Assembly: GCA_030267565.1 (NCBI GenBank)
Contig: BRXU01000006.1
Span: forward strand, 546,001 to 610,000
Origin: Pleodorina starrii
Lineage: Eukaryota; Chlorophyta; Chlorophyceae; Chlamydomonadales; Volvocaceae
Direction: 5' to 3'
DNA: 64,000 nucleotides
Within the stretch, counting starts at the first letter, position 1; every line of letters begins with the position of its first letter. The notes under the pieces are model-generated. The model worked only from the letters and a program-made list of their open reading frames with translations, made no database searches and had not been told where the DNA came from. This document shows positions 28,711-62,030 of the stretch, piece after piece. Made by a program: the position numbers and the translations under genes.

Positions 28711-34838
<6,128 letters not shown>

Positions 34839-36412: not shown

Positions 36413-36512
36413 GGTAGGGTACTTTGGGGACTTTACCCGCAGCCTTGATCATGGACGTATAAATGCCGCGTCCATGATCAAGGCTGCGGGTAAAGTCCCA
36501 AAGTACCCTACC
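36413..36512. repeat. Large fold-back: 44-45 bp arms, 11-nt loop
   Basis: The left arm 36413-36457 and right arm 36469-36512 are complementary over 44 bp with one extra G in the left arm; the loop is TATAAATGCCG. The second duplicated unit keeps only the right-arm sequence (about 41170-41230), so the inverted copy arose in unit 1 or was lost from unit 2. Confidence 0.9.
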
Positions 36513-37146: not shown

Positions 37147-37947
37147 TCAGTCCATCAGCCCCAGCACGAGCACGGCGGACAACATAAGATCGTCCGGCAG
37201 CAGCATGTAGTCCTCCGTCACCGAATGAGGCCCCGCTGCGATGGTAGCGGCGCCATCCGCAGCATGCCCACCGCCGGTGCCATGTCCCACCGCCGCCGTG
37301 CGCGGACCGCCCCACTCGCCAATGCCATTGACCGCCCAGCAACCGAACTGGCTAATAATGCAGCCGTACCCATCAAGAGACGGGTACAATGGCAAGGGCC
37401 CCTTGAAGACTCTGGGCGGCGGCGGCGGCGACTGCGTCTTTAGTACGCTGCCGTCACCGCCGTCAACAGCCGTCTTTGCGCCGGCAACGTCGGCGTGGGT
37501 ACTGTCGCCGCCGCTGCCGCCAGCAGCGATGGCACTGACGACGGTGGACGAAGGGCTTCGGGGCGACTCTCGAGGCGTAGACGGCGACTCCGGAGAGTCG
37601 TGCGACGACGACGTAGGCGGCGGTGGCCGCGGCGACGAAGGGCTGGGCGTAGACGGCGACTCCGGAGAGTCGCGCGACGACGACGTAGGCGGCGGCGTCG
37701 CTGCAGCGGCCACTGGCACCAGGCCTTGAAGGGCTACGGTTGCCGCAGCTCTGGCCTTGCTGTAGATGTCTTCATCTGACGCTTCCGGTTTGAGCTCGGC
37801 GGGGGACCCGACCCGAGCGGTCCTCGGCGCGGGTGGGTTGCGACGACGCGGTAGCCTTCTTGAACCTACATCAACCAAATCAAGCAGCTGCGGCACAGAG
37901 GAGGACCAACGGAGGGGAGAGATTATTTGTCGTCTAAAAGCGTCCAT
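37147..37947 (-). CDS. Low-complexity protein of unknown function (copy 1)
   Basis: One open frame from ATG 37947 to TGA 37149-37147 encodes 266 residues. No family was recognised. The N-terminus (MDAFRRQIISPLRWSSSVPQ) and C-terminus (FKGPLPLYPSLDGYGC..., SVTEDYMLLPDDLMLSAVL) look ordered. The middle is Pro/Ser/Ala-rich with repeated TSSSRDSPESPSTP modules and one SDEDIYSKARAAATVALQGL unit. The same frame is kept over 260 residues in the second copy, with many substitutions concentrated in the repeat region, which supports real coding. Neighbours give no functional clue. Confidence 0.6.
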   Translation of the reverse strand: MDAFRRQIISPLRWSSSVPQLLDLVDVGSRRLPRRRNPPAPRTARVGSPAELKPEASDEDIYSKARAAATVALQGLVPVAAAATPPPTSSSRDSPESPSTPSPSSPRPPPPTSSSHDSPESPSTPRESPRSPSSTVVSAIAAGGSGGDSTHADVAGAKTAVDGGDGSVLKTQSPPPPPRVFKGPLPLYPSLDGYGCIISQFGCWAVNGIGEWGGPRTAAVGHGTGGGHAADGAATIAAGPHSVTEDYMLLPDDLMLSAVLVLGLMD

Positions 37948-40605
37948 GCTCAGGATGTTTCGCAAGGGCGCAGACCGCCACGCAAGGTAGGGCGTGCAGC
38001 GCTATCTATCGACGGCTGTCAGCGGGCTATCGATGCTGCACAAATAAAAGAGCGCGGCCATTTGGACCAAGCTGCTGAAAAACATCTCAGCGTGCGAGCG
38101 ATCCTATAATCAATTATTGCACAGTACAGCTATCTAGGCTCTTACCACATATGGAGCCCGCTTGAGAGAAGACATACTCTTGGAAACGGCTTTAGATGAG
38201 ACTCCAGATAGACAGCGGACTCTTTACGAGCTCTGCGGCAATGTTTGCATGCGGCAATCGCGATGTCATGTCGTCACAGGGAACACAGGAACGAACATAC
38301 AGCTGCTGCGTGGTGATGCCGCTGCGTTGCTTCGTCCGCAAATAAAGAGAAGTAGCCTCGCCTGTAGCTCAACATAGCCCCGTGAACGTTCAACAATTGG
38401 TGCAACTAGTTGCAATCGGTTGCAAGCGATAAGCTCCAAAGCGCATGCCTTAAATAAGTACGCTGGGCCTGAAAGCCCTTGCACATACAGGTGAACGGGG
38501 GCAGTGAGGGCGCCTGGCCCGGCCTCAGCAACCGTCCAACACGCAAGTAATAACGCGTTCTCGAGAACGGAAGCCTATATATGTTGCTCTCACCTTGACG
38601 CCTCGAAATGTTAGCGGTCGGTGCTAAAAAAACAGGTTATATCTAGCCTGTAGCCCATGCAAGCGGACCTTCATGCATAACCTTGTAAAGTTTGTGCCCG
38701 TCAATGAAAAAGACAGCCAGCACAAGAATAATAAGGCATGCTCGCAATTGTGAGTGAGATGTGGCCTGCTGTGCTTTTATGGGGTGGAGCAGCGAGCGAC
38801 AGGTGTCCGTAGGTGCCCGCCGCCCTTGTGAGCTTGCCTCGGCTCGCGTCGTCGTCGTACGTGCAGGACACAAAACCGGATCCCGATGCATAGATGGATT
38901 CCTCCGATGGTGGTTTGCGCACGAATGCCCCGCCCCTGCCTCCCACCGCCGCACGGCCCACACGTGACCGTGTCTGCATGCATGATGGAGCGACGGAGAA
39001 CACACACTTCCATAGCCTCCAACTTAACGCAAGGGGCAATGCGCTGCCCGTTCACACACCGATAGGTGTCCGTCGCAAGTTCGAGGCATGGACTGTCTAC
39101 GTATGTAAGCGTACATCTTGGATGGGTACGCCTGACTTGGCAGCCCCACGCCGCAAAATCCATCATCTTGACATGACGCCGAAAGGAGTGTGCACCTGAA
39201 CGATGTGAACACTACGTAGTAGTACTGCTCCAATCAATCAATCGTTCGGGAGGGTTATTTGCCCGCAAGACTTTGTGTTACTGTTGGTGTACTCATTTTA
39301 CTTAATACACCTAACACTGTTGCGGGGGAATGGCCGTGTGGTTTACATGCATGCATAGGGCTCATCGAACAATTTTTCAGGAACATGCAGGCATGCAAAA
39401 CACGCATCACAGTGTACGTAGAGCTTCGCTTTTGCAAGCAGCTAGCTGGGGCTCAAGGCAAAGTGTTCAACTATTGTCGTCCTTCGTACACATTTCATAA
39501 ACGTGCATGAATGATGGATAGGGATGGATACTGTTGTCTGAGAACCAGCACGCAGCGCAGCAATTAATAAGCGTACGTAGATAGCAGCTCTGCATGAGCT
39601 CGCTGATGAACACTGTCGAGCTGAAATGGGAGCAAACCTACCTACCTCATGCATGCATAGGGAGACTTTAGGTGCTTAATAAAAGTGGTTGCGACTGTGC
39701 ATTTCTCAGGTATACGTACAAGCAAGTCTCTCCTTTTGCCCTCTTCAGAGCTTCAATGATGATTTTACATTGAGCTTCGCTGAAAGCTGACTCTGACAAC
39801 TGCTGAGAGTTGCTGCGGGGCGCGCGCACAGGGGCGGCGCACAGTAATTTTCTTAATAGTCGGTCCTGCCGTGTCCTGCTGCTGCTTGGAAAGTTTGCCA
39901 CAGCCGGCCCGCCTCCCTACCTCAAAGCGGCGGCTCGATATAAAGTGAATGAAAGCAATCGGTTATTTTAACACTGCGCAATGTCGTCGCAATACTTCGT
40001 GGCATGAGTGCGTATTTCGCAATGGATGGCGAGGCAGGGATCCTTTGTGTGCCACTTATTAAAGGTATTTAGCAAGGTGCTGTTATCGTGGCCAGCTGCT
40101 GTGATGACGCATTGCATTTTATCATTTGCTTATAAAATAAAATGGAGCAGTGCGGTCTCCCCTAGACGCGGGGCTTGGGCGTAATTCTTCTTCTAAAAGC
40201 ACCACGCCTCTCGTTACTTGCTTAGGCAGACTATCCGTCCGGTCATGAAGAACTCTTTTTCAGACGCTAGATTCTTTACGATAGTGCCGAAGAAAGGCTC
40301 GGCCCCGTTGCCCGACGTTTTGTGGTGACCGAGAAGAATGTAAAAAACAAAGCAGCATTATTGCGGAAAGGTGAGCCTGCTGCTAACACTGGATAACTTA
40401 GTGCGTGCACGTCCTCTCAGACAATTAATCTTGTGAAACGTTTGGCGCAGGACAGTAGTCCTGATGCCTGTTGAGCGAGCCCAAGGGAGCTACGTAGCTT
40501 CAAGTTCTCGCAGCAGGCATGTGAGGCCGGAGGCTGATGACAGCTAGTAGCCTTTGCGCGTTGCGAACAACTACATACAGAGCTCCAGTACGCAGACCTG
40601 CATGC

Positions 40606-40832: not shown

Positions 40833-41378
40833 TGTTCACAGTCATTCAGTATGTACCTTCTTAGAAGTGAGGCACGGCAGCCGAATTACGTACGCGGCAG
40901 ATGTTGAAGGGATCATTTACAGTGGGCAGGCCCGAGCAGCAGCAGGATCACCGGCGAACACCGCACCTGCTGCCACGCACTGCTGAGACCGAAGACCAAC
41001 TGAAATAAACCGCGGCGGGAAGTAGGCCTGTCCTAACGAACGACCAGAGACTCGACCATGAACAGCCCAACGTAGGGGGCAAGCAACCCCCGGAAATAAA
41101 CAAGTAATGACATCGATCAGAGTGATGAAGACCCGCCACTCTGCAGGGCGGGGCAGTGAGCCATCCGTAAAAATGCCGCGTCCATGATCAAGGCTGCGGG
41201 TAGGTAAAGCCCCCCAAAGTACCCTACCACCCACCCAGCCAGACACGCGATGCCTCAGCCCCAACGGCGGGCATCTGTACACACACAAGATGCCAACGCA
41301 GACCTCCGTCCTTAGTCCATACATGAAGGACCCTCACAGAACAGCTCACCCCAAGTACCCGTCAGAAGGGATGACGGG

Positions 41379-41588
41379 GTCCCCACGCGCGGTATCTCGA
41401 ACGCGGCGGCGTGGCATCCCAGCGCCATGAAGTTATGAAGCAGGGCCACAGAAAGCGGAAACCGCCCTTCGGACAGTTTCCTTGCTTTTGTTTTCCCATC
41501 GAAGTCAGAGTCTTCCAAATGCGACACAAGTTTCCTGTAAGTTGCAACCACCCTCCCCTCCCCCGCTCATCCGCCTGCGGCAATGCCA
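41379..41588. mobile_element. Insertion specific to duplicated unit 2
   Basis: In unit 1 the sequence GAAGGGATGACG joins directly to AAATTCGCTCC at about 36622. In unit 2 some 210 bp lie between. Part of it (41424-41480) matches 5286-5345, so this is a dispersed element. No terminal repeats were identified. Confidence 0.5.
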
Positions 41589-42092
41589 ACGAAATTCGCT
41601 CCGAGGGCCTCACTGACAAAACGCCATTGCCTACCCGCCGGGCGATGGACAATTCCCACAACTGCTGCTGCTGGCTGTACCATGCATACATACCGCGCCA
41701 TGCAGAACCGTAAATTCCAGACGACACGCGGCCGGCAATCATACACTGCGTGCACTCGTCTGCATGCCATACGCAGAAACTCAGCAGCGTATGCCTCTAC
41801 CTATCACAACTGCCGAATGAATCGACCAGACAGCAAAGAAAGGAGATCCTATCAACACTAAAACGGGTTACGCAACAGTCATATGTGTGGACCAGCGTGT
41901 GGCCGGGTCCTGAGTTTGGCGATGGATGTGTCAATGCGCCTATGTACGTGCGGTAATGACGTCTGATACTTTACTCGCTCCCCTTCCGTCCCCTACTCTC
42001 CATCCCTCTCCCCATCTCTTTCCCCCCCCTCGTAATGCCTTAGCCTTGCAAGTGCATGCATTAAGGCGTACCACTAGCTATAGCACCTCACT

Positions 42093-42991
42093 TCAGTCCA
42101 TCAGCCCCAGCGCGAGCACGGCGGACAACATAAGATCGTCCGGCAGCAGCATGTAGTCCTCCGTCACCGAATCACCTACATGCCCGCCGGTGCCATGCTG
42201 CGCCGCCGTGCGCAGACCGCCCCACTCGCCACTGCCATTGAGCGCCCAGCCACCGAACTGGCTAATAAGGCAGCCGTACCCATCAAGAGACGGGTACAGT
42301 GGCAAGGGCCCCTTGAAGATTCTGGGCGGCGGCGACTGCGTCTTTTGCATGCCGCCGTCACCGCCGTCAGATGAAGCCGCCGTTGCGCCGGCAACGTCGG
42401 CGTGGGGACTGTCGCCGTCGCTGCCGCCGCTAGCGACGGCACTGACGACGACGGTCGACGAAGCTCTTGGCGACTCTGGAGGCGTTGCCGGCATCTCCGG
42501 AGAGTCGCGGGACGACGATGTAGGCGGCTGCGGCGGCTGCGGTGACGGAGGGCTGGGCGTAGCCGGCGACTTCGGAGGGTCGCGCGACGACGACGTAGGC
42601 AGCGGCGTCGCTGCAGCGGCCACTGGCGCCAGGCCTGCAAGCGCCATGGTAGCCGCAGCTCTGGCTTTGGAGAAAATGTCTTCATCTAACTTCGGAGAGT
42701 CGCGCGACGACGACGTAGGCGGCGGCGGCGGCGTCCCAGCAGTCGCCACTGGCACCAGGCCTTGAAGGGCTACGGTTGCCGCAGCTCTGGCCTTGCTGTA
42801 GATGTCTTCATCTGACGCTTCCGTAGCGCGCTCCGGGGACCCGACCCGCCGAGCGGTCCTCGGCGCGGGTGGGTTGCGACGACGACGCGGTAGCCTTCTT
42901 GAACCTGCATCAACCAAATCGAGCAGCTGCCATGCGGCACAGAGGAGGACCAACGGAGGGGAGAGATTATTTGTCGTCTAAAAGCGTCCAT
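42093..42991 (-). pseudogene. Second copy of the low-complexity gene, frameshifted near its start
   Basis: The start region (MDAFRRQIISPLRWSSSVP from ATG 42991) is conserved with copy 1, but a 5-bp insertion (CCATG on the plus strand near 42929) shifts the frame. The ATG-initiated product would end soon after. Downstream the original frame is open to the stop at 42093 and closely matches copy 1, with one extra module (DEDIFSKARAAATMALAGL) and changed Pro/Ser repeats. Maintenance of 260 codons open suggests the frameshift is recent, or that another start or splice form is used. Function unknown. Confidence 0.6.
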
Positions 42992-44207
42992 GCTCAGGAT
43001 GTTTCGCAAGGGCGCAGACCGCCACGCAAGCAAGGTAGGGCGTGCAGCGCTATCTATCGACGGCTGTCAGCGGGCTATCGATGCTGCACAAATAAAAGAG
43101 CGCGGCCATTTGGACCAAGCTGCTGAAAAACATCTCAGCGTGCGAGCGATCCTATAATCAATTATTGCACAGTACAGCTATCTAGGCTCTTACCACATAT
43201 GGAGCCCGCTTGAGAGAAGACATACTCTTGGAAACGGCTTTAGATGAGACTCCAGATAGACAGCGGACTCTTTACGAGCTCTGCGGCAATGTTTGCATGC
43301 GGCAATCGCGATGTCATGTCGTCACAGGGAACACAGGAACGAACATACAGCTGCTGCGTGGTGATGCCGCTGCGTTGCTTCGTCCGCAAATAAAGAGAAG
43401 TAGCCTCGCCTGTAGCTCAACATAGCCCCGTGAACGTTCAACAATTGGTGCAACTAGTTGCAATCGGTTGCAAGCGATAAGCTCCAAAGCGCATGCCTTA
43501 AATAAGTACGCTGGGCCTGAAAGCCCTTGCACATACAGGTGAACGGGGGCAGTGAGGGCGCCTGGCCCGGCCTCAGCAACCGTCCAACACGCAAGTAATA
43601 ACGCGTTCTCGAGAACGGAAGCCTATATATGTTGCTCTCACCTTGACGCCTCGAAATGTTAGCGGTCGGTGCTAAAAAAACAGGTTATATCTAGCCTGTA
43701 GCCCATGCAAGCGGACCTTCATGCATAACCTTGTAAAGTTTGTGCCCGTCAATGAAAAAGACAGCCAGCATAAGAATAATAAGGCAGGCTCGTAATTGTG
43801 AGTGAGATGTGGCCTGCTGTGCTTTTATGGGGTGGAGCAGCGAGCGACAGGTGTCCGTAGGTGCCCGCCGCCCTTGCGAGCTTGCCTCGGCTCGCGTCGT
43901 CGTCGTACGTGCAGGACACAAAACCGGATCCCGATGCATAGATGGATTCCTCCGATGGTGGTTTGCACACGAATGCCCCGCCCCTGCCTCCCACCGCCGC
44001 ACGGCCCACACTTGACCGTGTCTGCATGCATGATGGAGCGACGGAGAACGCACACTTCCATAGCCTCCAACTTAACGCAAGGGGCAATGCGCTGCCCGTT
44101 CACACACCGATAGGTGTCCGTCGCAAGTTCGAGGCATGGACTGTCTACGTATGTAAGCGTACATCTTGGATGGGTACGCCTGACTTGGCAGCCCCACGCC
44201 GCAAAAT

Positions 44208-44332
44208 CCCGAGGCACGCACGTACGGCCTCACACTCACGAAGCGCCGCTGACCCATCCACCAGGACAGGCCGACAGCGGTGTACCGGGCCCACGATAAT
44301 AAAAAATATTGAAAAATATTAAAATTATTACA
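44208..44332. other. Second insertion specific to duplicated unit 2
   Basis: Relative to unit 1 (about 39160-39172) an extra ~120 bp begins after GCCGCAAAATC and ends in an AATATT/AAATTATTA-rich stretch before CATGACGCCGAA. The origin is unknown. Confidence 0.5.
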
Positions 44333-45739
44333 TGACGCCGAATGAAAGGAGTGTACACCTGAAGTGAACACTACGTACATAGTAATGTATGCTCGCTCCA
44401 ATCAATTAAACGTTCGGGAGGGATGTTTGCCCGCAAGACTTTGTATTAATGTTGATGTATTAATTTGACTTAATACACCAAACACTGTTGCGGGGGACGG
44501 ATTGGCCATGTGATTACATACATAGGCGGGGCTCAGCGAACCATTTTTCAGGAACGCATGCATCACAGTAGTGTACGTAGAGCTTCACGTTTGCAAGCAG
44601 TTGGGGCTCAAGGCAGGCAAAGTGTTCAACTATTGTCGTCCTTCGTATATATTTCATAGCATAAACATGCATGAATGATGGATACTGTTGCCTGAGAACC
44701 AGCAGCGCATGCAGCAATTAAGCGTACGTAGCAGCTCTACATGCGCTGCGCTGATGAACACTGTCGAACTGAAATGGGAGCCAACCTACCTCATCATGCA
44801 TGCGTAGGGAGACTTTAGGTGTTTAATAAATGTGCTTGCGACTGTTCAACTCTCAGGTATACAAGTCTCTCCTTTTGCCCTCTTCAGAGCTTCAATTAAT
44901 AATGAATTTTCGTTACATTCATATGTGTTGAGCTTAGCTGAAAGCTGCCTCTGACAACAGCTGAGACCGGCTGAGAGTTGCTGCTGGGTTTCCTCGCTCA
45001 GTAGTCGGTCCTACTCGGAAAGTTTGCCACAGCCGGCCCCGCCTCCCCACCTCAACGCGGAGGCTCGATATAAAGTGAATAAAAGCAATCGGTTATTTTA
45101 ACACTGCGCAATGTCGTCGCAATACTTCGTGGCATGAGTGCGTATTTCGCAATGGATGGCGAGGCAGGGATCCTTTGTGTGCCACTTATTTAGGGTATTT
45201 AGCAAGGTGCTGCTATCGTGACGAGCTGCTGTGATGACGCATTGAATTTTATCATTTGCTTATAAAATAAAATGGAGCAATGCGGTCTCCCCTAGACGCG
45301 GGGCTTGGGCGTAATTCTTCTTCTCAAAGCATCACGCCTCCCGTTACTTGCTTAGGCAGACTATCCGTCCGGTCATGAAGAACTCTTTTTCAGACGCTAG
45401 ATTCTTTACGATAGTGCCGAAGAAAGGCTCGGCCCCGTTGCCCGACGTTTTGTGGCTGGTGACCGAAACGATAGAATGTAAAGAACGAAGCAGCATTATT
45501 GCGGAAAGGTGAGCCTGCTGCTAACACTGGATAACTTAGTGCGTGTCCTCTCAGACAAGGAATCTTGTAAAACTTGGTTTCCTAAGTCCTCTAGTCCTGA
45601 CGCCTGTTGAGCGAGCCCAAGGGAGCTACGTAGCTGCAAGTTCTCGCAGCAGGCATGTGAGGCCGGAGGCTGATGACAGCTGGTAGCCTTTGCGCGTTGC
45701 GAACAACTACATACAGAGCTCCAGTACGCAGACCTGCAT

Positions 45740-46446
45740 GCATGCAGACCCGCACGCTTGCCCGCGGTTCGTTCAGGCACCGAGCGAGCGACGCACGTTC
45801 GGCTTGTGCTTTGTGTTTGCGTTCGGCTGCACTGCGTTCGTTCAGCAGCAGTTGTTTAACAGTTTGAAATGCTTCTATTGTTATTACAATGTACTCTTAT
45901 TCGTTGTCTTGGGCACAGTACACTCACTAGCCGTTATCGGCTTGCACTGCATGGATGGTCAGCCTGTCAGTGGCGCTTCATGGTAGGTGCCGGCCCGTGT
46001 GTGGCATCGGGCTCCTCCATCCTCGAGCCGTCCAATCAGGATATTCTCCCATCTAGATAGTAGGTTTTCCTCAACTTTGTAGCGGACACAGGCATGCGAG
46101 CAGGCATCGAGGTGCCACTTGCTTCGGAGGCAGTACGTGCGTGGAAGCAAATATCTGGCAGACACGCACTGCTAAGCGTGGGCTGTGAGGTCAGAGGATG
46201 GACGCATGGGGCACGAGTCGGCTGCTTCGAGGCTGGCAAACCACCGACGGGGGAATCCTTCTTTGCCTCGATGTATGTCCTGTTGTCCTGTCCATTGCGG
46301 GCGCTGGTGTTCCTCGATTGGGCCAAGCAAGCAAGGCTACGTCGTATTTCTACGGCTCGCTAACGCGTATATAATCAGCTAGCCCACCCTGCCTTGCGTA
46401 ATCAGCGAAACGTGTTCGTTAAACTTGCGCATGTATTGTATCCCAT
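45740..46446. other. Region between duplication and satellite array
   Basis: About 700 bp with no recognisable gene, repeat or RNA. Both strands have moderately long open frames at 46036-46363 without family motifs or splice context. Confidence 0.4.
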
Positions 46447-49400
46447 GCGCCCACCCACTACTTGGAGTGTGCGGTGTTGGCCACGGATACGTGCATACCG
46501 TACGTGCTGCTGCACCAGGTGCCGTTGGAAAGGCTGTGTAGGCAGGTGGCGACGGTGGTGATGGCGGTTGGACGCTTCAAGCTGGATAGCAGCAACAGCA
46601 GCGACCAGCTCACCTAACTACTGCCGGCCGTGAGAAGTAACGAAGGTAAGTACCGGCTGGGCATACACGGCTTGGATTGATTGCAGGGATTCCAATTCTT
46701 GATAAGCAATGTACGTACGTAGTAGCGTATGAACAGGGTTATGTATGTATTCACTCTAGCTAAGTAGACATGCGAGCCCATGCATGCACGCCCCTACGTA
46801 ATGTATCGCTCCGCCGTTAGTATTCATTGATGTACGAGATGTACGGCATTGCTCATTGCTATTTTCTGGCAGCCGCAGGTGCGCTGGTCGCTGCTGTTGC
46901 TGCTATCTAGCTTGAAGTGTCCAAACGCCATCACCGCCCTCGCCACCTGCCTACACAGCCTTTCCAACGGCACCTGGTGCAGCACAGCAGTATCCATGAC
47001 CAATACCACCCACATTATGTCGGCTCGTGTACTTTTGATGAGCGGCAAACGAAGCGCAATGCATGGGCATGCTTTAACTACCCGTGCTGCTGATAGATTC
47101 TTGACCCCTCATCAGGCGTACATGCGCCCACCCACTACTTGGAGTGTGCGGTGTTGGCCACGGATACGTGCATACCGTGCTGTCTCAGGTGGTATTGGAA
47201 AGGCTGTGTAGGCAGGTGGCGACGGTGGTGATGGCGGTTGGACACTTCAAGCTGGATAGCAGCAACAGCAGCGACCAGCTCATTTAACTGCCGGCCGTGA
47301 GAAGTAAGGTAAGTACCGGCTGGGCATACACGGCTTGGATTGATTGCAGGGATTCCAATTCTTGATAAGCAATGTACGTACGTAGTAGCGTATGAACAGG
47401 GTTATGTATGTATTCACTCTAGCTAAGTAGACATGCGAGCCCATGCATGCACGCCCCTACGTAATGTATCGCTCCGCCGTTAGTATTCATTGATGTACGA
47501 GATGTACGGCATTGCTCATTGCTACCGGTATTGTCTGGCAGCCGCAGGTGCGCTGGTCGCTGCTGTTGCTGCTATCTAGCTTGAAGTGTCCAAACGCCAT
47601 CACCGCCCTCGCCACCTGCCTACACAGCCTTTCCAACGGCACCTGGTGCAGCACAGCAGTATCCATGACCAATACCACCCACATTATGTCGGCTCGTGTA
47701 CTTTTGATGAGCGGCAAACGAAGCGCAATGCATGGGCATGCTTTAATGTGCTGCTGATAGATTCTTGACCCCTCATCAGGCGTACATGCGCCCACCCACT
47801 ACTTGGAGTGTGCGGTGTTGGCCACGGATACGTGCATACCGTGCTGTCTCAGGTGGTATTGGAAAGGCTGTGTAGGCAGGTGGCGACGGTGGTGATGGCG
47901 GTTGGACACTTCAAGCTGGATAGCAGCAACAGCAGCGACCAGCTCACCTAACTGCCGGCCGTGAGAAGTAAGGTAAGTACCGGCTGGGCATATGGCTTGG
48001 ATTGATTGCAGGGATTCCAATTCTTGATAAGCAATGTACGTACGTAGTAGCGTATGAACAGGGTTATGTATGTATTCACTCTAGCTAAGTAGACATGCGA
48101 GCCCATGCATGCACGCCCCTACGTGATGTCTCGCTCCGCCGTTAGTATTCATTGATGTACGAGATGTACGGCATTGCTCATTGCTACCGGTATTGTCTGG
48201 CAGCCGCAGGTGCGCTGGTCGCTGCTGTTGCTGCTATCTAGCTTGAAGTGTCCAAACGCCATCACCGCCCTCGCCACCTGCCTACACAGCCTTTCCAACG
48301 GCACCTGGTGCAGCACAGCAGTATCCATGACCAATACCACCCACATCATGTCGGCTCGTGTACTTTTGATGAGCGGCAAACGAAGCGCAATGCATGGGCA
48401 GGCTTTAATGTGCTGCTGATAGATTCTTGACCCCTCATCAGGCGTACATACATGCGCCCACCCACTACTTGGAGTGTGCGGTGTTGGCCACGGATACGTG
48501 CATACCGTGCTGTCTCAGGTGGTATTGGAAAGGCTGTGTAGGCAGGTGGCGACGGTGGTGATGGCGGTTGGACACTTCAAGCTGGATAGCAGCAACAGCA
48601 GCGACCAGCTCACCTAACTGCCGGCCGTGAGAAGTAACGAAGGGAAGTACCGGCTGGGCATACACGGCTTGGATTGATTGCAGGGATTCCAATTCTTGAT
48701 AAGCAATGTACGTACGTAGTAGCGTATGAACAGGGTTATGTATGTATTCACTCTAGCTAAGTAGACATGCGAGCCCATGCATGCACGCCCCTACGTAATG
48801 TATCGCTCCGCCGTTAGTATTCATTGATGTACGAGATGTACGGCATTGCTCATTACTACCGGTATTGTCTGGCAGCCGCAGGTGCGCTGGTCGCTGCTGT
48901 TGCTGCTATCTAGCTTGAAGTGTCCAAACGCCATCACCGCCCTCGCCACCTGCCTACACAGCCTTTCCAACGGCACCTGGTGCAGCACAGCAGTATCCAT
49001 GACCAATACCACCCACATCATGTCGGCTCGTGTACTTTTGATGAGCGGCAAACGAAGCGCAATGCATGGGCATGCTTTAACTGCCCGTGCTGCTGATAGA
49101 TTCTTGACCCCTCATCAGGCGTACATGCGCCCACCCACTACTTGGAGTGTGCGGTGTTGGCCACGGATACGTGCATACCGTGCTGTCTCAGGTGGTATTG
49201 GAAAGGCTGTGTAGGCAGGTGGGCGACGGTGGTGATGGCGGTTGGACACTTCAAGCTGGATAGCAGCAACAGCAGCGACCAGCTCACCTAACTGCCGGCC
49301 GTGAGAAGTAACGAAGGGAAGTACCGGCTGGGCATACACGGCTTGGATTGATTGCAGGGATTCCAATTCTTGATAAGCAATGTACGTACGTAGTAGCGTA

Positions 49401-50870
49401 TGAACAGGGTTATGTATGTATTCACTCTAGCTAAGTAGACATGCGAGCCCATGCATGCACGCCCCTACGTAATGTATCGCTCCGCCGTTAGTATTCATTG
49501 ATGTACGAGATGTACGGCATTGCTCATTGCTACCGGTATTGTCTGGCAGCCGCAGGTGCGCTGGTCGCTGCTGTTGCTGCTATCTAGCTTGAAGTGTCCA
49601 AACGCCATCACCGCCCTCGCCACCTGCCTACACAGCCTTTCCAACGGCACCTGGTGCAGCACAGCAGTATCCATGACCAATACCACCCACATCATGTCGG
49701 CTCGTGTACTTTTGATGAGCGGCAAACGAAGCGCAATGCATGGGCATGCTTTAACTACCCGTGCTGCTGATAGATTCTTGACCCCTCATCAGGCGTACAT
49801 GCGCCCACCCACTACTTGGAGTGTGCGGTGTTGGCCACGGATACGTGCATACCGTTCTGCACCAGGTGCCGTTGGAAAGGCTGTGTAGGCAGGTGGCGAC
49901 GGTGGTGATGGCGGTTGGACACTTCAAGCTGGATAGCAGCAACAGCAGCGACCAGCTCACCTAACTGCCGGCCGTGAGAAGTAACGAAGGGAAGTACCGC
50001 CTGGGCATACACGGCTTGGATTGATTGCAGGGATTCCAATTCTTGATAAGCAATGTACGTACGTAGTAGTGTATGAACAGGGTTATGTATGTATGCACTC
50101 TAGCTAAGTAGACATGCGAGCCCATGCATGCACGCCCCTACGTAATGTATCGCTCCGCCGTTAGTATTCATTGATGTACGAGATGTACGGCATTGCTCAT
50201 TGCTACCGGTATTGTCTGGCAGCCGCAGGTGCGCTGGTCGCTGCTGTTGCTGCTATCTAGCTAGCTTGAAGTGTCCAAACGCCATCACCGCCCTCGCCAC
50301 CTGCCTACACAGCCTTTCCAACGGCACCTGGTGCAGCACAGCAGTATCCATGACCAATACCACCCACATCATGTCGGCTCGTGTACTTTTGATGAGCGGC
50401 AAACGAAGCGCAATGCATGGGCATGCTTTAACTACCCGTGCTGCTGATAGATTCTTGACCCCTCATCAGGCGTACATGCGCCCACCCACTACTTGGAGTG
50501 TGCGGTGTTGGCCACGGATACGTGCATACCGTTCTGCACCAGGTGCCGTTGGAAAGGCTGTGTAGACAGGTGGCGACGGTGGTGATGGCGGTTGGACGCT
50601 TCAAGCTGGATAGCAGCAACAGCAGCGACCAGCTCACCTAACTGCCGGCCGTGAGAAGTAACGAAGGGAAGTACCGGCTGGGCATACACGGCTTGGATTG
50701 ATTGCAGTGATTCCAATTCTTGATAAGCAATGTACGTACGTAGTAGCGTATGAACAGGGTTATGTATGTATTCACTCTAGCTAAGTAGACATGCGAGCCC
50801 ATGCATGCACGCCCCTACGTAATGTATCGCTCCGCCGTTAGTATTCATTGATGTACGAGATGTACGGTAG
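46447..50870 (+). repeat. Tandem array of ~670-bp units, each with an internal inverted repeat
   Basis: The landmark GCGCCCACCCACTACTTGGA recurs at 46447, 47124, 47788, 48454, 49127, 49801 and 50478, giving periods of 664-677 bp and about 6.6 units. Units are more than about 95% alike by eye. Each complete unit holds two inverted copies of a ~130-bp segment, for example 46884-47015 against 47147-47279, separated by about 130 nt. Both copies read as the same peptide-like frame (LHQVPLERLCRQVA...FKLDSSNSSDQ), one on each strand, so the arms look exon-derived. Spacers carry ACGTACGTAGTAGCGTATGAAC and TGCATGCACGCCCC. The array ends at GATGTACGG near 50868. There is no transposon protein and no gene call. 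Confidence 0.9.
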
Positions 50871-51227
50871 GCTATATACATCTTATGTAGCGAGACATAT
50901 CTCCAGTTGGCGCTGCTGAACGTCCTGACACAGATTAGGCGTCCCCCTCCCCGTAGTCGTTGTGGATAGTAGTGTTCCGTTCACTGTTGACCTGACTTGG
51001 TACGACATTCTGGCCTCGTAACTTACACCATTTTAGTCCATTTCCTGTCAGGACGCCCTGGATGCCTCTGAAGATTTTGAGGAGTGGGCACTGCAGGGGG
51101 GTACCGGGCCAATTTCTTCAGTGCCCACTGGCCACTGGCCAAATCGGCAAATATTTTAGTGCCCACCCGCAAAACGGGAATTATTTTTGCAGTACAAATG
51201 GGCACCAGTGCCCACTTCGAGAAACAC

Positions 51228-51440
51228 TGGGGGGTGGGGGGGGGGTGGGGTGGGGGGGTGGGGGGGTGGGGGGGTGGGGTGGGGGGGTGGGGGGGTGGGT
51301 ATGGCGGTTGGGGGTGGGGGGGGGGGGGTTTAGGTTTTGGGGGCGGTGGGGAGGTTTGGGGGGTTTAGGGTTTTGGGGGGGGGTTGGGGGTTGGGGGTTG
51401 GGGGGGTTGGGGGGTGTTATGGTTTGGGGGGGGGTATATA
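51228..51440 (+). repeat. G-rich tract (GGGGTGGGG / TTTAGGGTTTTGGGG)
   Basis: Almost pure G/T sequence on the plus strand, with runs of 5-10 G separated by single T or short T runs. It includes GGTTTAGGGTTTTGGGG, a telomere-like string. It is strongly predicted to form G-quadruplexes, and a similar tract recurs at 60039-60205. Confidence 0.85.
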
Positions 51441-51499
51441 TGTTATATAAAGGAGCATATCACTCCCTGCCCACCCCCGCCCGCCCGCCCCTCCTGCAG

Positions 51500-54400
51500 G
51501 CCGCCGCCGGCACACACTTTTGAGCTGTTGCTGCAGGTAATGTGACGTAGCGTGTGACGCTCCGGAACCCAACTTTGGCTCCAGAGGTGTAACACTGCGG
51601 AACCTAAGGTTACCCCAGCTTGGTTGGTGCTGCTGCCCCTTTATGGCCACTTTGATGCATCGCCAACAAACGCAGATCCCATACATGACGCTTTGTTGCG
51701 ACCTCATCCTCACAACCCCCCAAACACACACACACCCTCACCCTCACAACCCCCCAAACACACACGTGCAAACCTCCTTCCCCCCCGCGCCATCGAGGCC
51801 CTCCCCGGGCCCGCCGGCGTGCCCGCGGGGTGGCTCACGGAGTGCAGATTTAAGTGGGGCGGACATCATGTGCGGGTCTGCAGCGTTTACTTCCCGCAGG
51901 CCGGGAGGGATGGCGCCGCGGGCCTGCGGCAACAGCTGTGTCAGGCAGGCCTGGCGCCCGCCGCCGCAGATGCGGCGGCAGATGGCTAGGTACTGCTGTG
52001 GTGCGGCGATTTCAACTTTGTGGAGAACCCGGCCCTGGACTGCCCCAGCCCGGACCTGCGTGCAGCAGACGCGGCCCCATCCATGCAGCTGCAGGAGGCG
52101 GCGGCGGCCGCAGGGATGGTGGACAGCTTTCGCACGTTGCACCCCCAGCACCGTGAGTTCACGTACCTATACCGGGGACCGCGGCCTGGGGGATCCCGCC
52201 TGGACCGCATCTACCTGCCTGAGGCGGCCTGCCCATACCTCGTGAAAGCGTACATCAACGTCACCTCGCCGTCTGACCATCGGCTCGCCATCGCCCACAT
52301 CGCAGCCCGCCAACCGCCCCCCAACACCAATCTCCCGCGCCGCCTCCGCCTCCACTGCCTAGCGCATTCGGACCTGAAACGCAGCCTGGGCGAATGGCTA
52401 GACGAGGAAGTGGGAGCGGCCCCCACCGGCGGTGAGCACCCGCAGCAGGCCGTTCTGGACTGGTGGCCGGCGTTCAAACGCCGGCTCACAGCCCAGGTGG
52501 CCCGGCTCAACCGAGAAGCACAAACACGCCGTGTCCGGCCAGCCGCCAGCGTGCAGCAGCTACCGGCGGCAGCACAGGAACCCGCCAGCGCCCTGGATGC
52601 CGTCCAACGAGGAACGGCTGGCGGCGGCAGTGGAGGCGCAGGTGGCAGTGCAGAAGGGCATGCGGGCCGCAGCCAACGAGGCGGCCCGGGACGCCCGGCG
52701 GAACCGGATCAGTGAAGGCGAGCGCCCCTCCCGGGCCCTCACCGCCCTCATCCGGGAACAGAGCGATGGCGGCAACGGGGGCGGCCCCGGCCCCTCCATG
52801 CTGCACGTCCCCCGCACGGGCCAGCTGGTCAGCGACGCCAGGCGACTGCCGCAGATCATCGCCAATTTCTGGCAGGACGTCAGCACCCTGCCATCGGAGG
52901 CTGAGCTGCCGGCATCGGTGAAGCAGCAGGTGCAGGCCCAGGTCCTGGAGGCCCTCCGAGACCACCCGCTGCGACTGCCGGCAGACCCGGAAGACCCAGT
53001 CGGCCGGGCCCAAGTGGGCAGCACCGAGGTGGCCGCGGCTCTCAAGGCCACGCCGTGCGGAAAAACGCCGGGGTGGGATGGCCTGCCCGTGGAGCTCTAC
53101 CGGACCTTCCAGCGACAGTTCGCCCCCCTCCTGGCTGACCTATTCACCGCCATCGGCACCACAGGCAACATGCCCGCGCGGTTCACCGAGGGCATCATCA
53201 AGGTGCTCTATAAAAAGAGCGACCCCACACAGCCAGGCAACTACCGCCCCATCACCCTGCTCAACACGGACTACCGCATCCTCGCAAACGTCATGGCAAA
53301 TAGGCTTGGCCCCGCCCTGAATGCCGCGATCTCTGCGGAGCAAACGGCCTTCCTCCCGGGGCGACACATTGGCGCCAGCATCTTCACCCTCTGCTACCTT
53401 CCCCACCTCCTCCGACGCCAGGGATGCAACACACTGGTCGCCTTCCTCGACTTTGCCAAAACCTACGATACGGTCCACCGGGACTTTCTAGTGGCAGCGA
53501 TGGCGGAGCTGGGCGCGTCCGAACAGCTCCGAAAATGGGTACAGACGCTGTTGGTGGACACGCAGGCCCGGGCGCTGGTGGGGGGGGAGGCAGTCAGATC
53601 CGGTCAGCATGGCGGTGGGCGTCCGACAAGGCTGCCCGCTCGCCCCGCTGCTCTACCTCTTCGTCACGCAAGCGCTGCTGTCATGGCTACAACGCAAGGG
53701 GCTGGGCATTCGCCTGGACCCAGCAGATGCCGAGCTAACCACGGTGGTGCAGTTTGCGGACGACGGAGAGGTGTTCCTGGAGGGTGACCACACCGTCCAA
53801 GCCTTCCTCGACGCCACGGAGACGACGTTTGCACAGGCCACCGGACAGCGGCTAAACCGTGACAAAGTGGAGCTCCTGAGAGTTGGCCACCTGCCGGCAC
53901 AGCCGCAGCAGCCACCCCAGCAGCCACCCCAGCAGCCCCCACCTCAGCAGCCGCCAGGCCCGCCGGAAGCCGGCGCCCAGCCCCCACCGCCCGCGCCGCC
54001 GCCTCCAGCACCAGCCCCGCCGCAAGCACCAGCACCAGCCCATGCGCCCGCAGTGCCAAACATCCAGGGCCTGCACCTGGTGCCTGCCGCGACCGTGCTC
54101 GGAGCTGGCTTCTCAAATAACCCAACAGGCCAGCAATCCAACTGGCACCGTGCCGGGGAGGAGATCTGCAAGCGGTTGCACCGCGTCACCAGACTTCGGC
54201 TGTCGGTGTTCGGCAGCTGCAACCTCATATCGGCATACACCTTACAGATCAGGACGTACCACTGGGAGCACGGCGGCCGAGGAGGGGGGGAAGAGGCCCG
54301 CCAGGTGGAGAGATGGGCAGCACAGGCAGGCGACCGCAGGGTCCGCCCCATCACGCCATGTCAGCGCCTCACCGGCCTCCCAGGGCAGCTCATGTGGGGC

Positions 54401-57400
54401 GCGGCGTGAGACGGTGGATGCGGGCTGCTGCCGCTCACCCTGCACACCCGCGCACGGGAGGCGGTGAAGGTGGCCAAGCTCGCCCGGACCGCCAGCCAGC
54501 CAGCAGACAACGCCCACTCGTCGGTACGAACGTTCGCCCAGCTGCTCCGTAGCTACCACCCGCTGCTGAGCCCCGGATCCGTGCTCACCACGGGTGTGGT
54601 GCAGGGAGGGATGCCCCACCCAGGAACAGACCCCCTGCCCGCAGACGTCACGACACTCCTCGTTGCCCTCAGCTACCTCCCCCCCGTGCAAGATGTTGAC
54701 ACGACGCCGCTGCCGGCCGCCGGGGACTGGCGCCTTAATATCCCGCTTTGGGGCAACCCCCTTCTGCCGAACGGTGCGCAACCGACCAGCGGGGCAGCGG
54801 CAGCGGGGGATGAAGTGGACGTGCAGGCGGCCGATCCAGACTTCGCGCCCGAGGAGGAGGACAGGGACATGGCTCCCAACCCGCTTCCTAGGCCAGGACT
54901 AGAGAGCCGCCACAGGCGTCTGGCGGCATGCAGGGCGTTGCGCACGGTGGGTGACCTAATGAGGGTGACGCAGGCCGCCACATCCACCCCGCGAGCAGCT
55001 GGTGAGTGGGAGGCCTGGGTAACAGCCAACCTTGACCCCAGCGACCTGACAGGCTTCAGGCAGACGACGACCATCGACGCCACCAACCGCCTCACGGCGG
55101 ATATTAGCCCGGAATGGCGTGCAGCAGCAGCGACGGTGCTGGTGCACCCGGAACACGCGGCAGGGCTGGATACAGAGGAGACGATACGAGCTCGGTTCGT
55201 GGGGCGGGTGGGCTGGCAGTTTGGGGGGTCACTCAGCATCAAGCTGCGCGACCTCTCCGTCCGCCAAGCCACCCAACTGCAGATGCAGCCGGTAACGGAG
55301 CGCCGAGCCCGCCTGCACGCAGCCTACGAGCGGGAAGCCCGGGAGCAGCCCGCAGCAGCGGCAGCAGCAGCAGGAGCCTACCCGCCGGGACATCAGCCAG
55401 CCGCCGCCGAAGTGGCGCCAGCAGCAGGCATACTGGCAATGCTCCGGCGAATGTGGCCCATCAAATGGGAGCATGAACACTTTGAGACGCTCTGGTGGTT
55501 GGCACAGGACGGCGTGCCGCTTCCCGGCAACAGCCACATCAGGGGAGCGGCACCAGAACAATGCAAGTGCGGCGTGTATGGGGGAGCCGGCCCACACGCA
55601 TGCTCGCCGCGTGCACACCACTTCTGGGAGTGCCCGGTGGCGCAAGTGGTGGTGCAGCAGATCGCCGCCTACGTGCCCGGGCCCATCACCCGGGCAAACG
55701 TGTGGCTGGCGGAGCCACCGCCAGGCGTGCAGCAGTGCATGTGGGACGTGATCTGCCTGGCGGCACTCACGGCCATGGAACGGGCGCGTGTGGGGCTGTG
55801 GGCAGTCAGGAACTCACCCACCACCCCGGACACCCCAGACCCAGTCGAGGTGGCCAAGGCGCGTGCAGCACTAGCATTTTGGCAGCGTGTGCGGGGGTTT
55901 GTGGAGCTAGACGTGCCAAGGCGGGGATGGGAGGGGGTAGGGCCTGACCACCCCATCCTGGCGGTGGTCAAAGGCCACTTTCAGTGTGTGCAGCACGCAG
56001 GGATGGGTATTGAGGGAGAGGGAGGGGACGTGGAGTGAGGGGATGAATGGGCTGTAGGGTTGAGGGAGGGAACTTAGGGCGTCGAGGCAGGGAGGCATGA
56101 GAGGAGGGGAGGAGGGGGGGTCCTTTGGGTCCGAGAGGACTGAGGGTGCAGAGACCGCCGCGGGCTGCCTTTTGTAGGCGAGGGAGGCTTTAGGGAGCGG
56201 GTATAGTTGAGTGAGGCGAGTTGGCGAGGTGCCGCCTAGTGCGAACTATAGCTCCATCACCTAGCCCGCTGCCGCAAGGCCCGCTCCCGACCTCCTGCCG
56301 TGTCGAGGCCAAGCGGCGCTCTGGAGCTCGGCCTCTAGGGGCCACCCCGCCCCCGGCCTCTCCGGGGCCGTCATAGTAGGAGTAGTAGCAGGGGTAGGGC
56401 ACACGCTGTCTTAGGTTTTCCTTTGGTGCTGACCGCCCACGAGCCGGACCAAGCTCGGGGCAGGTTCTCAGCACTTTGTTTTCGTGCCTAGAGGAGCACC
56501 GCCAGCCGGTAGCAGGCCGGCCAGGCGCCCCGGTGCTGCAAGGACTTCAGGGCGGGGAGGACAGCACGGGTGCCGTGTTGTGTGCCGGCGCGACACTGTT
56601 TGTGCGGACGAAGGGCCCAGCTGCCGTATAAGGCAGGCTGTGCGCTCAAGCCTTTGGGGAGCCGCTGCACCGTACACCCGTATATGGGGTGTACGACGCA
56701 GCCAGCTCTGCGTCGAGCAGGAGGGGTAGCGGCCCCTCACACCCTTCTCCCACCGCAAGGGGGAGAGTGCATAGGCGGTCTTTCCGTCGGGGCTGGGTTA
56801 GCAGCCCCTGGCCAGCGTCAGAGCCCGGTCAGATACTGTAACGACACACACTCATACACACGCACACGCACACACATACACACACACCCTCCCCCTCTCC
56901 CTTCCCCCTTCCCAGTCCGAGGTGGACCGGCTGGAGAAGGAGCTGGCGGAGCGCAACACAGAGTACACCCGCCGACCTGCCGCCCCCGCCGTCGCCGTCC
57001 CTTAGCCCTGTCCCTTAGCTCTTATCTTTTATCTCCCCGCCCCCACCCCCACCCCCGCCTCCACCCCCCCCCACACACACACTCCGGGTTCGTTCGCTAA
57101 CACCATATCCTGATCCCTTGCTGTGGTATCTTCTTTTTACCCCCACCCCACCCACCCCCTGCCCACACCCCCACACCCCCAGCCCCCAGCTTGCCGTGAA
57201 GCCCAAGATGGCCCAGATGCAGTGCTGCATCAATGAGCTGTCGGTGCAGGTGGCGGACCTGATGCAGGAGCGGGATGCGGTGGTGGGCCAGACCAACAGC
57301 ATCAGGCAACAGGTACGAATGGGTCACATCATGCCGAATATGACATTCATTGTGATATACCGGTACAATCGTTGGCAAGGGCAGCTGCGAGGGTAGCGGC

Positions 57401-60038
57401 AAGGGCAGCGGCAGAAGGGGGAGGGGGTAATGAAATCGATACCACAGTGGAGGGACGGGGGCGGCAGGGGGAGTGGGTTCCCGTGGGCGGGCGGGCGGGC
57501 AGGCAGGCAGGGCCACAGAGGGGGCCGGGGTGGTAAGGGCCGGCTGGTGGGGCTCCTACATGTTGTTGAGGAGGAGAGCGGCAGGGGAGATAGATAGGGA
57601 GCCGCCGCCTCACCTGGTCTCACCTCTCCTTCATCTACCCATGCTCCCTAAGCCCCTCACACACCCAATCCCACACCCACGCCCAGGTGCACCACCATCG
57701 CCTACCGCCAGCCCACAGCACCCCGCCCCGCACCACCCTGCTAACGCCGTCCTGTCTCAGTCCCGTCGCTGCGGTATCTTTCTTTTCCTTATCCCACCAC
57801 CCCCACCCCTCCATTCCCACAGCTCCAGGAGGAGACGGCGGCGCACTCCCAGATGGACGGCCGCCGAGTGAGGCTGGTTGAGGAGGTGGATGCTCCGCGG
57901 CATCCTGCAGATGTACTACATTCCCTTCTGAGCTCCGAGACTGGCGGGCGAGCGGGCTGGCCGGCATTTCGCCGGTTCCGTTCCGGGGGCCGCACCCAGA
58001 TGCAGCCTGAGACATCTGAACAAGCAGGAGTGCGGTGGTCTAGATGTCACGCCCGATTACCGTACTCGCTGGGTTTCACACACTCTGGATACCAGAACTC
58101 CCCCCCCAGCCGACAGAAACGGCGGAAGGCGCCGTAAGGGCGGCTGACACACCAGAGCAAGGAAACTGCCCGACTAACGCTAACCTGCTGCCAGTCACTA
58201 AGCAACAGCAACGCAACACCGACAGTGGCAAAACGCCAGGCTCACGACAAAGCACGCCAGAAACAACTGCTCCAGCCAAATCATGTCCCGCACAGCTCAA
58301 CCAGACCGAGAAAAGGTACCTATCTAGAAAGGAAAACCCTGAAGCGCAGACCGGCAAAGCAGAAACAGAGCACCGCCAAGGCAACGAAGGAGACAAACTA
58401 CACCCAGTGCACAGGCTCAACAGGCCTGCACCGGGCAAAAGAAAGGCTGCGGGCTGGACCTACTCAGGTGGCATGCAACAGGTGAACACGGCCGACTGCT
58501 GGGATAGGCTAGCACTCCCTTGGGCCGCCCTCGCCAGCCAGGACACTCTTCCTGAGGCTCATGCACCAACCAACGGACGTAGCGGAACTCAGCGGCACAC
58601 CATGAACGGAACACAGTCAATAGGCTCAGGACTAAGGACTTTTGAGCCATTGCATTCCGTAAACATTATCCAATCCAGGAACTCCTCGGCCCTGCACGTG
58701 TGACTCTCGAAGTCGCTTGCACGGCAATCTGCATATCCCCTGGAAAACCCTGGCCCTGGTAAAACACTATTCAACAGAATATCCCTCGGAAATCCCCTGG
58801 AGAACCCTTGTCCAGCACGGCTGGCAGAAACGGTGCACTAGAATGACACGTCTGGGCAGTGAAACACGGTGCACCCGCGCGGCCGGAATAAAGCCATTCC
58901 CGGAAAGCGCCACATACAAAAGAAGACCGCCCTATCAGAGGACCAGATGTCTGCGCCTGGAACGCCGCACTCGGGGGAAAACCCTGGCTAGCACGCCCCC
59001 CCTGGGTATCAAGGCCGTACACAAGGGGCCGCCGGTTGTCAAAGCTCTTCACGCTGCCGGCTTGCTAAAAGTCGAACCCGTCGGCTATCACGCATTATGC
59101 CGTAAGGAGCCGGCACAAATCGCAAGCTACTGACCGCCGCTTATCTGCGGGCACGGGCAGGCTCTCCGTTCAGCCCCCGTCCCTTGGCTCACCCTCGCGC
59201 TGGTGGCTCGGCGCGCGCTGCTAAATCATGCCAAACAGGACCCCACCTGTGTAACCTCCTAATTCAGGCTACAATAACGCTGCCCGGTGACCTGCAACCT
59301 TCCCGCAAAGTAACTCGCAAACGACGGACAACCCTATCGATGGCCGGCGGGTACACGACAAGGAGCCGGACGCGTTTCGCGCTCGTTAACCCACTCAAAG
59401 GCATCCAGATCATGCATCGGTCTTCACAAAGGGTACTCGATCTCCCTTCCAAACGCTCAGGTCTCGGCGGGCATCACGATGAACATCACAGGCCGGCACT
59501 CGATCATATTCGCCGGCATCTTCAAGACATAATCATCAATTAATAGCTCCATCGCGTAATCACCAAGCGGTCTCGTAGCTCGATCCTGGCTGAAGCCAGG
59601 CATGGTCTCGTGTCAGAAGGTATAGACCCACAGGCACTTACATCCACACAAAAAACTATTGAAAGCTGCCCTCTCCTCCCTCTCCTCCCTCTCCCGCCCT
59701 CCCCTACCCCCACATCCGCCGCCCGCCATATCTCCTGCAGTATCTCCGCATCCGCCGCCCACCGTATCTCCTGCGGTATCTCCTTTTTTACTCCCCTCCC
59801 CGCCCCTCCCCGCCCCCCCCCCCCGCAGATAGACGCCCTGTGGCTGGATCTGGACGATGCCAAGGAGAGTGCCTCCCAGGCCTCCAAGTTGCAGTTTCAG
59901 GTGGAGATGCAGGCGGCACAGGTGGAGAGGGTGCGGCGGGCGGCGGTGGTGGAGGCGGACAAGGTGTGGGCGGCGGTGGAGGTGGAGCGTGCCCGCACGG
60001 AGGCGGAGGCGGAGCGCACACGAGCGGAGGCAGAAAAG
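51500..60038 (+). CDS. Coiled-coil protein, partial exon model interrupted by a LINE
   Basis: Exons proposed are 51500-51536, 56916-56962, 57183-57312, 57823-57867 and 59829-60038, all preceded by CAG-type acceptors and phase-compatible. The joined peptide is heptad-rich and highly charged: THTFELLLQ-like start, then SEVDRLEKELAERN, INELSVQVADLMQERDAVV, LQEETAAHSQMDGRR, IDALWLDLDDAKESASQASK and ERVRRAAVVEADKVWAAVE...ERTRAEAEK. This is typical of a long coiled-coil structural protein, but no family was recognised. The first and last exons of the gene were not found. The donor after 56962 (GTACAC) is weak, and no donor directly follows 60038, where a poly-G tract starts. The 5.4-kb intron 51537-56915 holds the LINE. 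It could be a living gene, or one broken by the insertion. Confidence 0.5.
51780..56038 (+). pseudogene. LINE endonuclease/reverse transcriptase ORF with stops and frameshifts
   Basis: Endonuclease motifs are WCGDFNFVENPALD (about 52008-52050), GGSRLDRIY and SPSDHRL. An in-frame TAG at 51987-51989 precedes the GDFN motif. Around 52560-52600 the frame shifts by one. The RT follows with GKTPGWDGLPVELY, YKKSDPTQPGNYRPITLLN, EQTAFLPGRH and motif A AFLDFAKTYDTVHR. A second shift occurs at a poly-G run near 53577-53588. The next frame has motif B GVRQGCPLAPLLY and motif C VQFADDGEVFLE, then a Pro/Gln repeat. A TGA at 54407-54409 interrupts it. The open tail to 56038 ends with C-x-C ... HHFWECP, the usual LINE C-terminal zinc-knuckle-like motif. 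The RT catalytic FADD is intact, but the copy as read cannot make a full protein. The L1 clade is judged from the motif wording. Confidence 0.88.
51780..56840 (+). mobile_element. L1-clade non-LTR retrotransposon (LINE), 5'-truncated and decayed
   Basis: The element contains, in order, an APE-type endonuclease (without its N-terminus), a reverse transcriptase and a C-terminal Cys/His motif. It lies between AC-rich simple sequences (about 51722-51772 and 56846-56890), so it may have inserted into, or generated, an AC microsatellite. Left and right limits are therefore approximate. It sits in an intron of the coiled-coil gene in the same orientation. Confidence 0.85.
56846..56890 (+). repeat. 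AC/CACATA microsatellite at the LINE 3' end
   Basis: ACACACTCATACACACGCAC-type imperfect dinucleotide repeat just upstream of the next coiled-coil exon. It probably marks the 3' junction of the LINE. Confidence 0.6.
58020..59590 (+). other. Unclassified 1.6-kb block in a coiled-coil gene intron
   Basis: The composition of this intron segment differs from the C/T-rich intron around it. It holds three successive plus-strand open frames (58044-58703, 219 codons; 58717-59133, 138 codons; 59184-59543, 119 codons). The first begins MSRPITVLAGFHTLW and is rich in Gln, Thr and Lys. None resembles a known family, and no terminal repeats were found. It is most likely an inserted element, but this is inference. 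Confidence 0.3.
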
Positions 60039-60205
60039 GGGGGGGGAATGGAGGGTGGGGGGGTTGGGGGGGTTAGGGTTTTGGGGGTGGGGGTTGGGGT
60101 TGGGGGGGTTGGGGGGGTTGGGGGGGTTAGGATTTGGGGGTGGGGTGGGGGGTAGGGGTAGGTGGGGATGGGTGGGGGTGGGGTGGGGTGGGGTGGTGGG
60201 GGGTG
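60039..60205 (+). repeat. Second G-rich tract (GGGGGTT / GGGTTTTGGGGG)
   Basis: Poly-G runs alternate with TT, TTA and TTTT, directly following the last recognised coiled-coil exon. It closely resembles the tract at 51228-51440, 9 kb away in the same gene territory. Confidence 0.85.
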
Positions 60206-60337
60206 TTAAGCTCGTAAAAATGTCTATTGATGGTACTCAACATATTCGGGCAGAATTAGAGTTCGGGCGGAGGGGGGCGCCCAAACTCTTACTGCACCAT
60301 ACACCACACTGCTGCACTCGCCGTGAACGGCCCTATT

Positions 60338-61969: not shown

Positions 61970-61971
61970 AG

Positions 61972-61990: not shown

Positions 61991-62030
61991 TGGCCCTTAC
62001 CGCTGCTTACATTTTGACAACATCACGACA

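Follow-up and report, generated by a model that had tools for sequence, protein, structure and literature searches.

The locus described here raises the question of whether a tandem series of inverted repeats in the green alga Pleodorina starrii is a source of small RNAs and, if so, what these RNAs would act on. An earlier note on this DNA had placed about 6.6 head-to-tail units of ~670 bp at 46447..50870, each with two inverted ~130-bp copies of an exon-like sequence, and had read them as a possible serial-hairpin small-RNA locus. All coordinates refer to the window, that is, the whole 64,000-nt stretch of DNA that was analyzed. The array was delimited at 46444–50868, within three bases of the earlier coordinates at both ends; its boundaries were set where homology to the adjoining units ends, and the right edge is uncertain by about 1 base. 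It comprises six full units (664–677 nt) and one partial unit (394 nt), head to tail, which bears out the earlier count and unit length. Its features are as follows (units 1 to 6 from unit alignment).

46444–50868, no strand assigned: whole tandem array, 6.6 units, by homology limits
46444–47120, plus strand: unit 1, 677 nt, with a 7-nt insertion upstream of the forward arm
47121–47784, plus strand: unit 2, 664 nt
47785–48450, plus strand: unit 3, 666 nt
48451–49123, plus strand: unit 4, 673 nt
49124–49797, plus strand: unit 5, 674 nt, forward arm with a 1-nt insertion
49798–50474, plus strand: unit 6, 677 nt, inverted arm with a 4-nt insertion
50475–50868, plus strand: partial unit 7, 394 nt, which has the forward arm and the greater part of the spacer and lacks the inverted arm
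46508–46615, plus strand: forward arm core of unit 1
47178, 47842, 48508, 49181, 49855, and 50532, plus strand: starts of the forward arm cores of units 2 to 7
46877–46984, minus strand: inverted arm core of unit 1
47546–47653, 48208–48315, 48880–48987, and 49554–49661, minus strand: inverted arm cores of units 2 to 5
50227–50338, minus strand: inverted arm core of unit 6, including the 4-nt insertion
46616–46876, no strand assigned: forward-to-inverted arm spacer of unit 1, ~261 nt, the loop of the within-unit hairpin
46985–47177, no strand assigned: spacer joining units 1 and 2, from inverted arm to forward arm, the inner part being the loop of the between-unit register

Unit starts (46444, 47121, 47785, 48451, 49124, 49798, and 50475) are spaced 664–677 nt apart. 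Identity between units is 96.1–99.7% over all 21 pairs, the partial unit included, and 97.6–99.7% among the six full units. Because the partial unit stops short of the inverted arm, there are seven forward arms and six inverted arms. The two inverted copies per unit were recovered as arms with a 108-nt core and a weaker extension, with small indels and gaps, that brings the match to ~140 nt in total. Complementarity between the cores within units 1 to 6 is 94.4, 88.0, 89.8, 89.8, 89.8, and 94.4%, respectively, with one gap column in the arm–arm alignment of unit 5, four in that of unit 6, and none in the other full units. Hence, all six full units have arms that are 88–94% complementary over 108 nt, well beyond the ~50 bp on which the earlier note had made its reading depend. 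Among the inverted-repeat pairs found (48 in total), the 25 longest match at 90–94%. The repeat architecture is real, and its earlier description is confirmed.

The arms within a unit differ by ~6–12%, as compared with 0.3–2.4% between full units. Since the arms are more diverged than the units, the inverted duplication probably preceded the tandem amplification. Variants are common to neighboring units (an AACG deletion in units 2–3, a six-base forward-arm variant in units 2–5, and GGAAGT in units 4–7), as expected if units were exchanged unequally. Among the six units, 23 of 692 columns are variable, including 10 of 109 in the forward arm core, 9 of 267 in the spacer, and 0 of 112 in the inverted arm core. 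If the six-base variant is taken as two events and an adjacent pair as a single event, there are 18 variation events, and the chance of seeing no variation in the inverted arm would be 0.04 had this arm been named beforehand. In a post hoc test, the longest invariant run, of 155 columns, has P = 0.22 of occurring anywhere, and we make no claim of selection on the invariant inverted arm, its place having been chosen after the fact. Nor is the stem pairing obviously under selection, because, in units 2–5, the forward arm departs from the inverted arm at six clustered positions, which makes one end of the stem weaker; no compensatory changes between the arms were seen in the unit and arm alignments. 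CpG depletion was considered as a mark of methylation and set aside, the value for the array (0.835) being unremarkable next to that for the window (0.899).

Folding of a single unit, a check suggested by the earlier note, gave −372.7 kcal/mol for unit 1, far below the −239.7 ± 7.4 (SD) obtained for 60 dinucleotide shuffles, the lowest of which reached −259.3. At 18 SD below the shuffles, a chance origin of this folding is excluded. All six full units, folded singly, form one dominant stem of 112–148 bp on both strands, containing unbroken helices of 26–45 bp; the array is thus a long inverted repeat with stems well above miRNA length, as in hairpin-RNA (hpRNA) loci. In the fold of the whole array, each strand forms six stems of at least 110 bp, and the plus strand additionally shows three long-range helices of 54–58 bp between spacers. 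On both strands, neighboring units supply the two sides of five of these long stems: an inverted arm pairs with the forward arm that follows it in the next unit, across a 116–141-nt loop. The sixth is a long-range stem between forward arm 1 and inverted arm 4 on the plus strand and a within-unit hairpin on the minus strand. The array as modeled therefore has two possible hairpin registers, within-unit and between-unit, and the energy model prefers the latter. Of the serial hairpins with nearly identical stems that had been anticipated, the six long stems were reproduced by folding, but in the whole-array fold five of them pair between units instead of in the within-unit register. The plus strand folds slightly lower than the minus strand in all six units and in the whole array (−2426 versus −2361), a weak hint as to which strand may be transcribed, given units that are not independent and TATA-like motifs that flank both sides.

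Transcription signals were sought around the array, and one candidate was noted immediately upstream.

46368–46373, plus strand: TATATA, a box-like motif lying 76 nt before the array, a possible promoter

For the minus strand, TATATA occurs at 50873, 51435, and 51444, and motifs that flank both sides in this way do not discriminate the direction of transcription. The pentamer TGTAA, which serves volvocine algae as a poly(A) signal, occurs on neither strand of the array; within the region scanned (44001–54000), the next copies are at 51588 (plus strand) and 45884 (minus strand). As judged from the letters, flanking context and motifs fix no transcription direction.

The best explanation, in our judgment, is a single-locus, tandemly amplified hpRNA locus, a reading in which our confidence is evenly balanced. 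We likewise put the chances that the array is transcribed and diced at about even. The whole array would be transcribed as one noncoding RNA, which is predicted to fold into approximately six stems of 110–148 bp; Dicer would cut these stems into 21–22-nt small RNAs, and an Argonaute would carry them, so that the products plausibly feed the RNA-silencing pathway of the host. Such a role is possible since the assembly encodes Piwi (Argonaute-type) domains and one RNase III domain. Piwi (PF02171) gave 13 matches on contigs C1, C7, C22, and C3, 10 of which are above the cut-off, and the assignment of the single RNase III domain to a Dicer is putative. Two of the Piwi places (C1:4699187-4701045 and C7:2601742-2603600) have identical scores and spacing, which suggests that the duplication is either very recent or a product of the assembly.

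Because no complementary gene was found in the assembly, small RNAs from the array would have as targets the locus itself, short sites that match in part, or a sequence absent from the assembly, such as an element or gene carried by other strains or by the other sex. Alternatively, they may act on nothing yet, in which case this would be a young and possibly neutral small-RNA locus. Rohr et al. 2004 reportedly used an artificial tandem inverted-repeat RNAi transgene in Chlamydomonas; judged by its title, that system resembles the array in its tandem inverted-repeat RNAi design, and it differs in being, reportedly, a transgene aimed at a chosen gene.

The nearest natural architecture is the hp-CG4068 cluster of Drosophila. 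According to passages of the paper describing it (PMC10317233), this established endo-siRNA source has 20 copies in D. melanogaster and nine in D. simulans, is transcribed as one common transcript, needs Dicer-2, and targets mus308; D. simulans also has a hp-tHMG cluster of 13 hairpins. Like both clusters, the array repeats a hairpin unit head to tail and has the potential to form many near-identical hairpins. It matches the defining geometry of the hp-CG4068 cluster and, if transcribed, would work in the same manner. Unlike hp-CG4068, it is known from sequence and predicted folds, resides in a green alga, and has no target found in the assembly. A complementary target elsewhere in the genome, as expected of an hpRNA, was not found in this assembly by searches with the unit, the arm, two arm peptides, and arm patterns of up to three mismatches; shorter or poorer sites, sites for the remainder of the arm, and targets in other strains are possible.

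Long-hairpin sources of small RNAs are also known in the host group. In V. carteri, the AGO3-bound 21–22-nt RNAs are described as coming from hairpins, phased loci, the terminal inverted repeats of a transposon, and eight intergenic loci that are strong but unexplained, and the Jordan miRNAs as deriving from transposon inverted repeats (PMC5093975). Some Chlamydomonas miRNAs are stated to arise imprecisely from fairly long hairpins (PMC5511227), and 61.1% of the high-confidence miRNAs of C. reinhardtii are reported to lie in introns or UTRs (PMC4817775). The array shares host group and long-hairpin form with these miRNA and siRNA loci but differs from their intron or UTR (C. reinhardtii) and Jordan inverted-repeat (V. 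carteri) sources. No serial array of 108-nt arms is described in those parts of the Chlamydomonas and Volvox small-RNA literature that were examined, and no report of a comparable array in algae was found at the level of titles and abstract openings, supplements being outside this scope. The main text of PMC5093975, the Volvox AGO3 study, contains none of five arm substrings, a result of little weight, since that study gives its sequences in supplements. Six arm 12-mers, in T and U spelling, matched nine papers, all under titles unrelated to algal small RNAs. If the array is transcribed, a green alga would possess a tandem hpRNA cluster, which would suggest repeated amplification of one hairpin as a route to strong endogenous silencing outside animals. 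Its near-identical units with two forward-arm variants, giving closely and less closely matched stems, would then be a natural test of the effect of mismatches on dicing.

The main rival to the hpRNA reading is that of a transcriptionally silent local satellite, in which an inverted duplication arose by chance and then multiplied, through unequal crossing-over or through replication slippage at the palindrome, without any RNA function. We regard this as a serious possibility that falls short of an even chance. The homogeneous units, the partial unit at one end, and the fact that the closest pair is adjacent (U4–U5, 99.7%) all fit unequal exchange; indels are scattered, the forward-arm variants weaken the stem in units 2–5, and no convincing target was found. 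The surroundings are also prone to duplication. A tandem segmental duplication of ~5 kb (36083–40605 and 40836–45741, 77–97% identical in pieces) ends 700 bp upstream of the array; four minus-strand open frames in it gave no Pfam match over the cut-off, and the stretch 45742–46460, searched against the assembly, matched itself only. Against a silent satellite, stems of 112–148 bp are retained in all six full units, and the longest inverted repeats in the rest of the window belong to a microsatellite. Other pairs with arms of at least 60 nt, sought separately in 1–46000 and 51000–64000, number 36, and the 25 longest of these all lie within one ATA microsatellite. Neither point proves function. 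If silent, the array would be a clean example of such loci arising without function and a null for hairpin-based small-RNA annotation.

A more specific form of the hpRNA reading is a natural serial siRNA weapon with a target absent from the genome, that is, a memory against a selfish element, a virus, or a sex-limited gene of other strains. One hairpin would have been amplified, much like the testis hpRNAs of Drosophila, and, if true, amplified hpRNA loci would have originated independently outside animals. We consider it unlikely.

In the version of the earlier note, the arms derive from a captured exon whose parent gene the small RNAs would silence. The exon-like sequence is there in the sense that LHQVPLERLCRQVA can be read from either arm; in unit 1, the forward arm has 55 open codons, with a similar peptide from the inverted arm (78% identical over residues 11–55). 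Hairpins made of gene fragments are known elsewhere, as in the tHMG hpRNAs described in part of PMC10317233. However, the open frames are no longer than chance: the longest stop-free run is 98 codons in unit 4 and 96 in unit 1, as compared with shuffle means of 102 and 100 (1000 shuffles each). The arms of unit 1 differ at six codons, five nonsynonymous and one synonymous, and units 2–7 lack the 7-nt stretch to which unit 1 owes its open frame, although unit 5 is open through a 1-nt insertion.

The genome search for a parent gene that had been proposed was run on the whole assembly (136,057,477 bases, 95 contigs) and returned the array, apart from one chance-like place. All matches lie inside the array for the whole unit (20 matches listed), the arm DNA (13 of 13), a 35-residue arm peptide (13 of 13), a 55-residue arm peptide at E ≤ 10 (18 of 18 candidate places), and the inter-unit spacer (7 of 7); this similarity search scores the best candidates only, so weak relatives could be missed. 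Arm patterns of 24, 29, and 25 letters, allowing up to three mismatches, fell in the array at 12 of 13, 13 of 13, and 9 of 9 places, respectively; together, these patterns span ~77 letters of the 108-nt arm, short of its repetitive CAGCAGCAACAGC end. The same three patterns read backwards, as controls, had no match in the assembly. The one place outside the array, a 24-mer on contig C2 with three mismatches, was rejected as a target or parent and attributed to chance, since it lies at a likely splice junction and no similarity extends beyond it in the 9.5-kb stretch read. The gene that holds it is receiver-domain-like and, named by eye, resembles a response regulator.

Neither a parent gene nor a second copy of the array was thus found in the 136-Mb assembly by DNA, peptide, or pattern searches with up to three mismatches, nor was a parent with a matching exon, as expected of an exon-derived (inverted-duplication) miRNA gene. 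Two arm peptides matched no Pfam family, an arm peptide had no relative among PDB sequences, and a search of 5.8 billion proteins found no relative among candidates of 0.55–1.75 query length, a range in which a full-length parent could be missed. Of 21 stretches in viral contigs that fit a peptide pattern, none was confirmed. Rfam gave no match above the gathering score (4227 families, whole window). An exon origin is unsupported because there is no other match in the assembly, the frames are of chance length, and the arm codons differ 5:1 in favor of nonsynonymous changes; the claim that the arms direct RNAs at a parent gene is likewise unsupported. It is possible that the parent is absent from this assembly or very diverged, and we judge capture of an exon with silencing of its parent to be quite improbable.

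Still less probable is a nonautonomous transposon with terminal inverted repeats that was inserted and then tandemly amplified. Paired inverted arms do flank a spacer, a LINE-like element lies downstream, and Volvox Jordan elements with terminal inverted repeats are described, in the text consulted, as yielding miRNAs (PMC5093975). Dispersed copies, as expected of such a transposon or MITE, were nevertheless not found: every match for the unit (20 listed), the arm, or the spacer in 136 Mb sits in one array, which argues against a dispersed transposon. Between the 20-nt sequences on the two sides of the array, no shared word exceeds 4 nt, so that nothing points to a target-site duplication at the edges. 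A series of small protein genes on one strand or both, suggested by stop-free runs of 93–139 codons that recur through the array, is hardly credible given frames of chance length, frame-shifting indels between units, and two arm peptides that matched no protein family.

The window also contains several other repeats. The LINE-like element lies on the plus strand at 51990–54406 and contains an endonuclease domain, an Exo_endo_phos fragment (E = 9.8e-5, just under the cut-off), followed by a reverse-transcriptase domain, RVT_1, that is split between two frames (E = 2.6e-15 and 1.8e-8). It is preceded by a G-rich tract. Two such tracts, at 51229–51440 and 60038–60210, contain GGGTTTAGGGTTTT-like words that, by eye, resemble degenerate telomere-type repeats, and they are possibly the ends of related elements. 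An ATA microsatellite at 30828–31022 has 65 copies with 98% matches. Finally, a pair of direct repeats (16451–17243 and 25960–26796), 72–95% identical in pieces and 9.5 kb apart, is perhaps a transposon.
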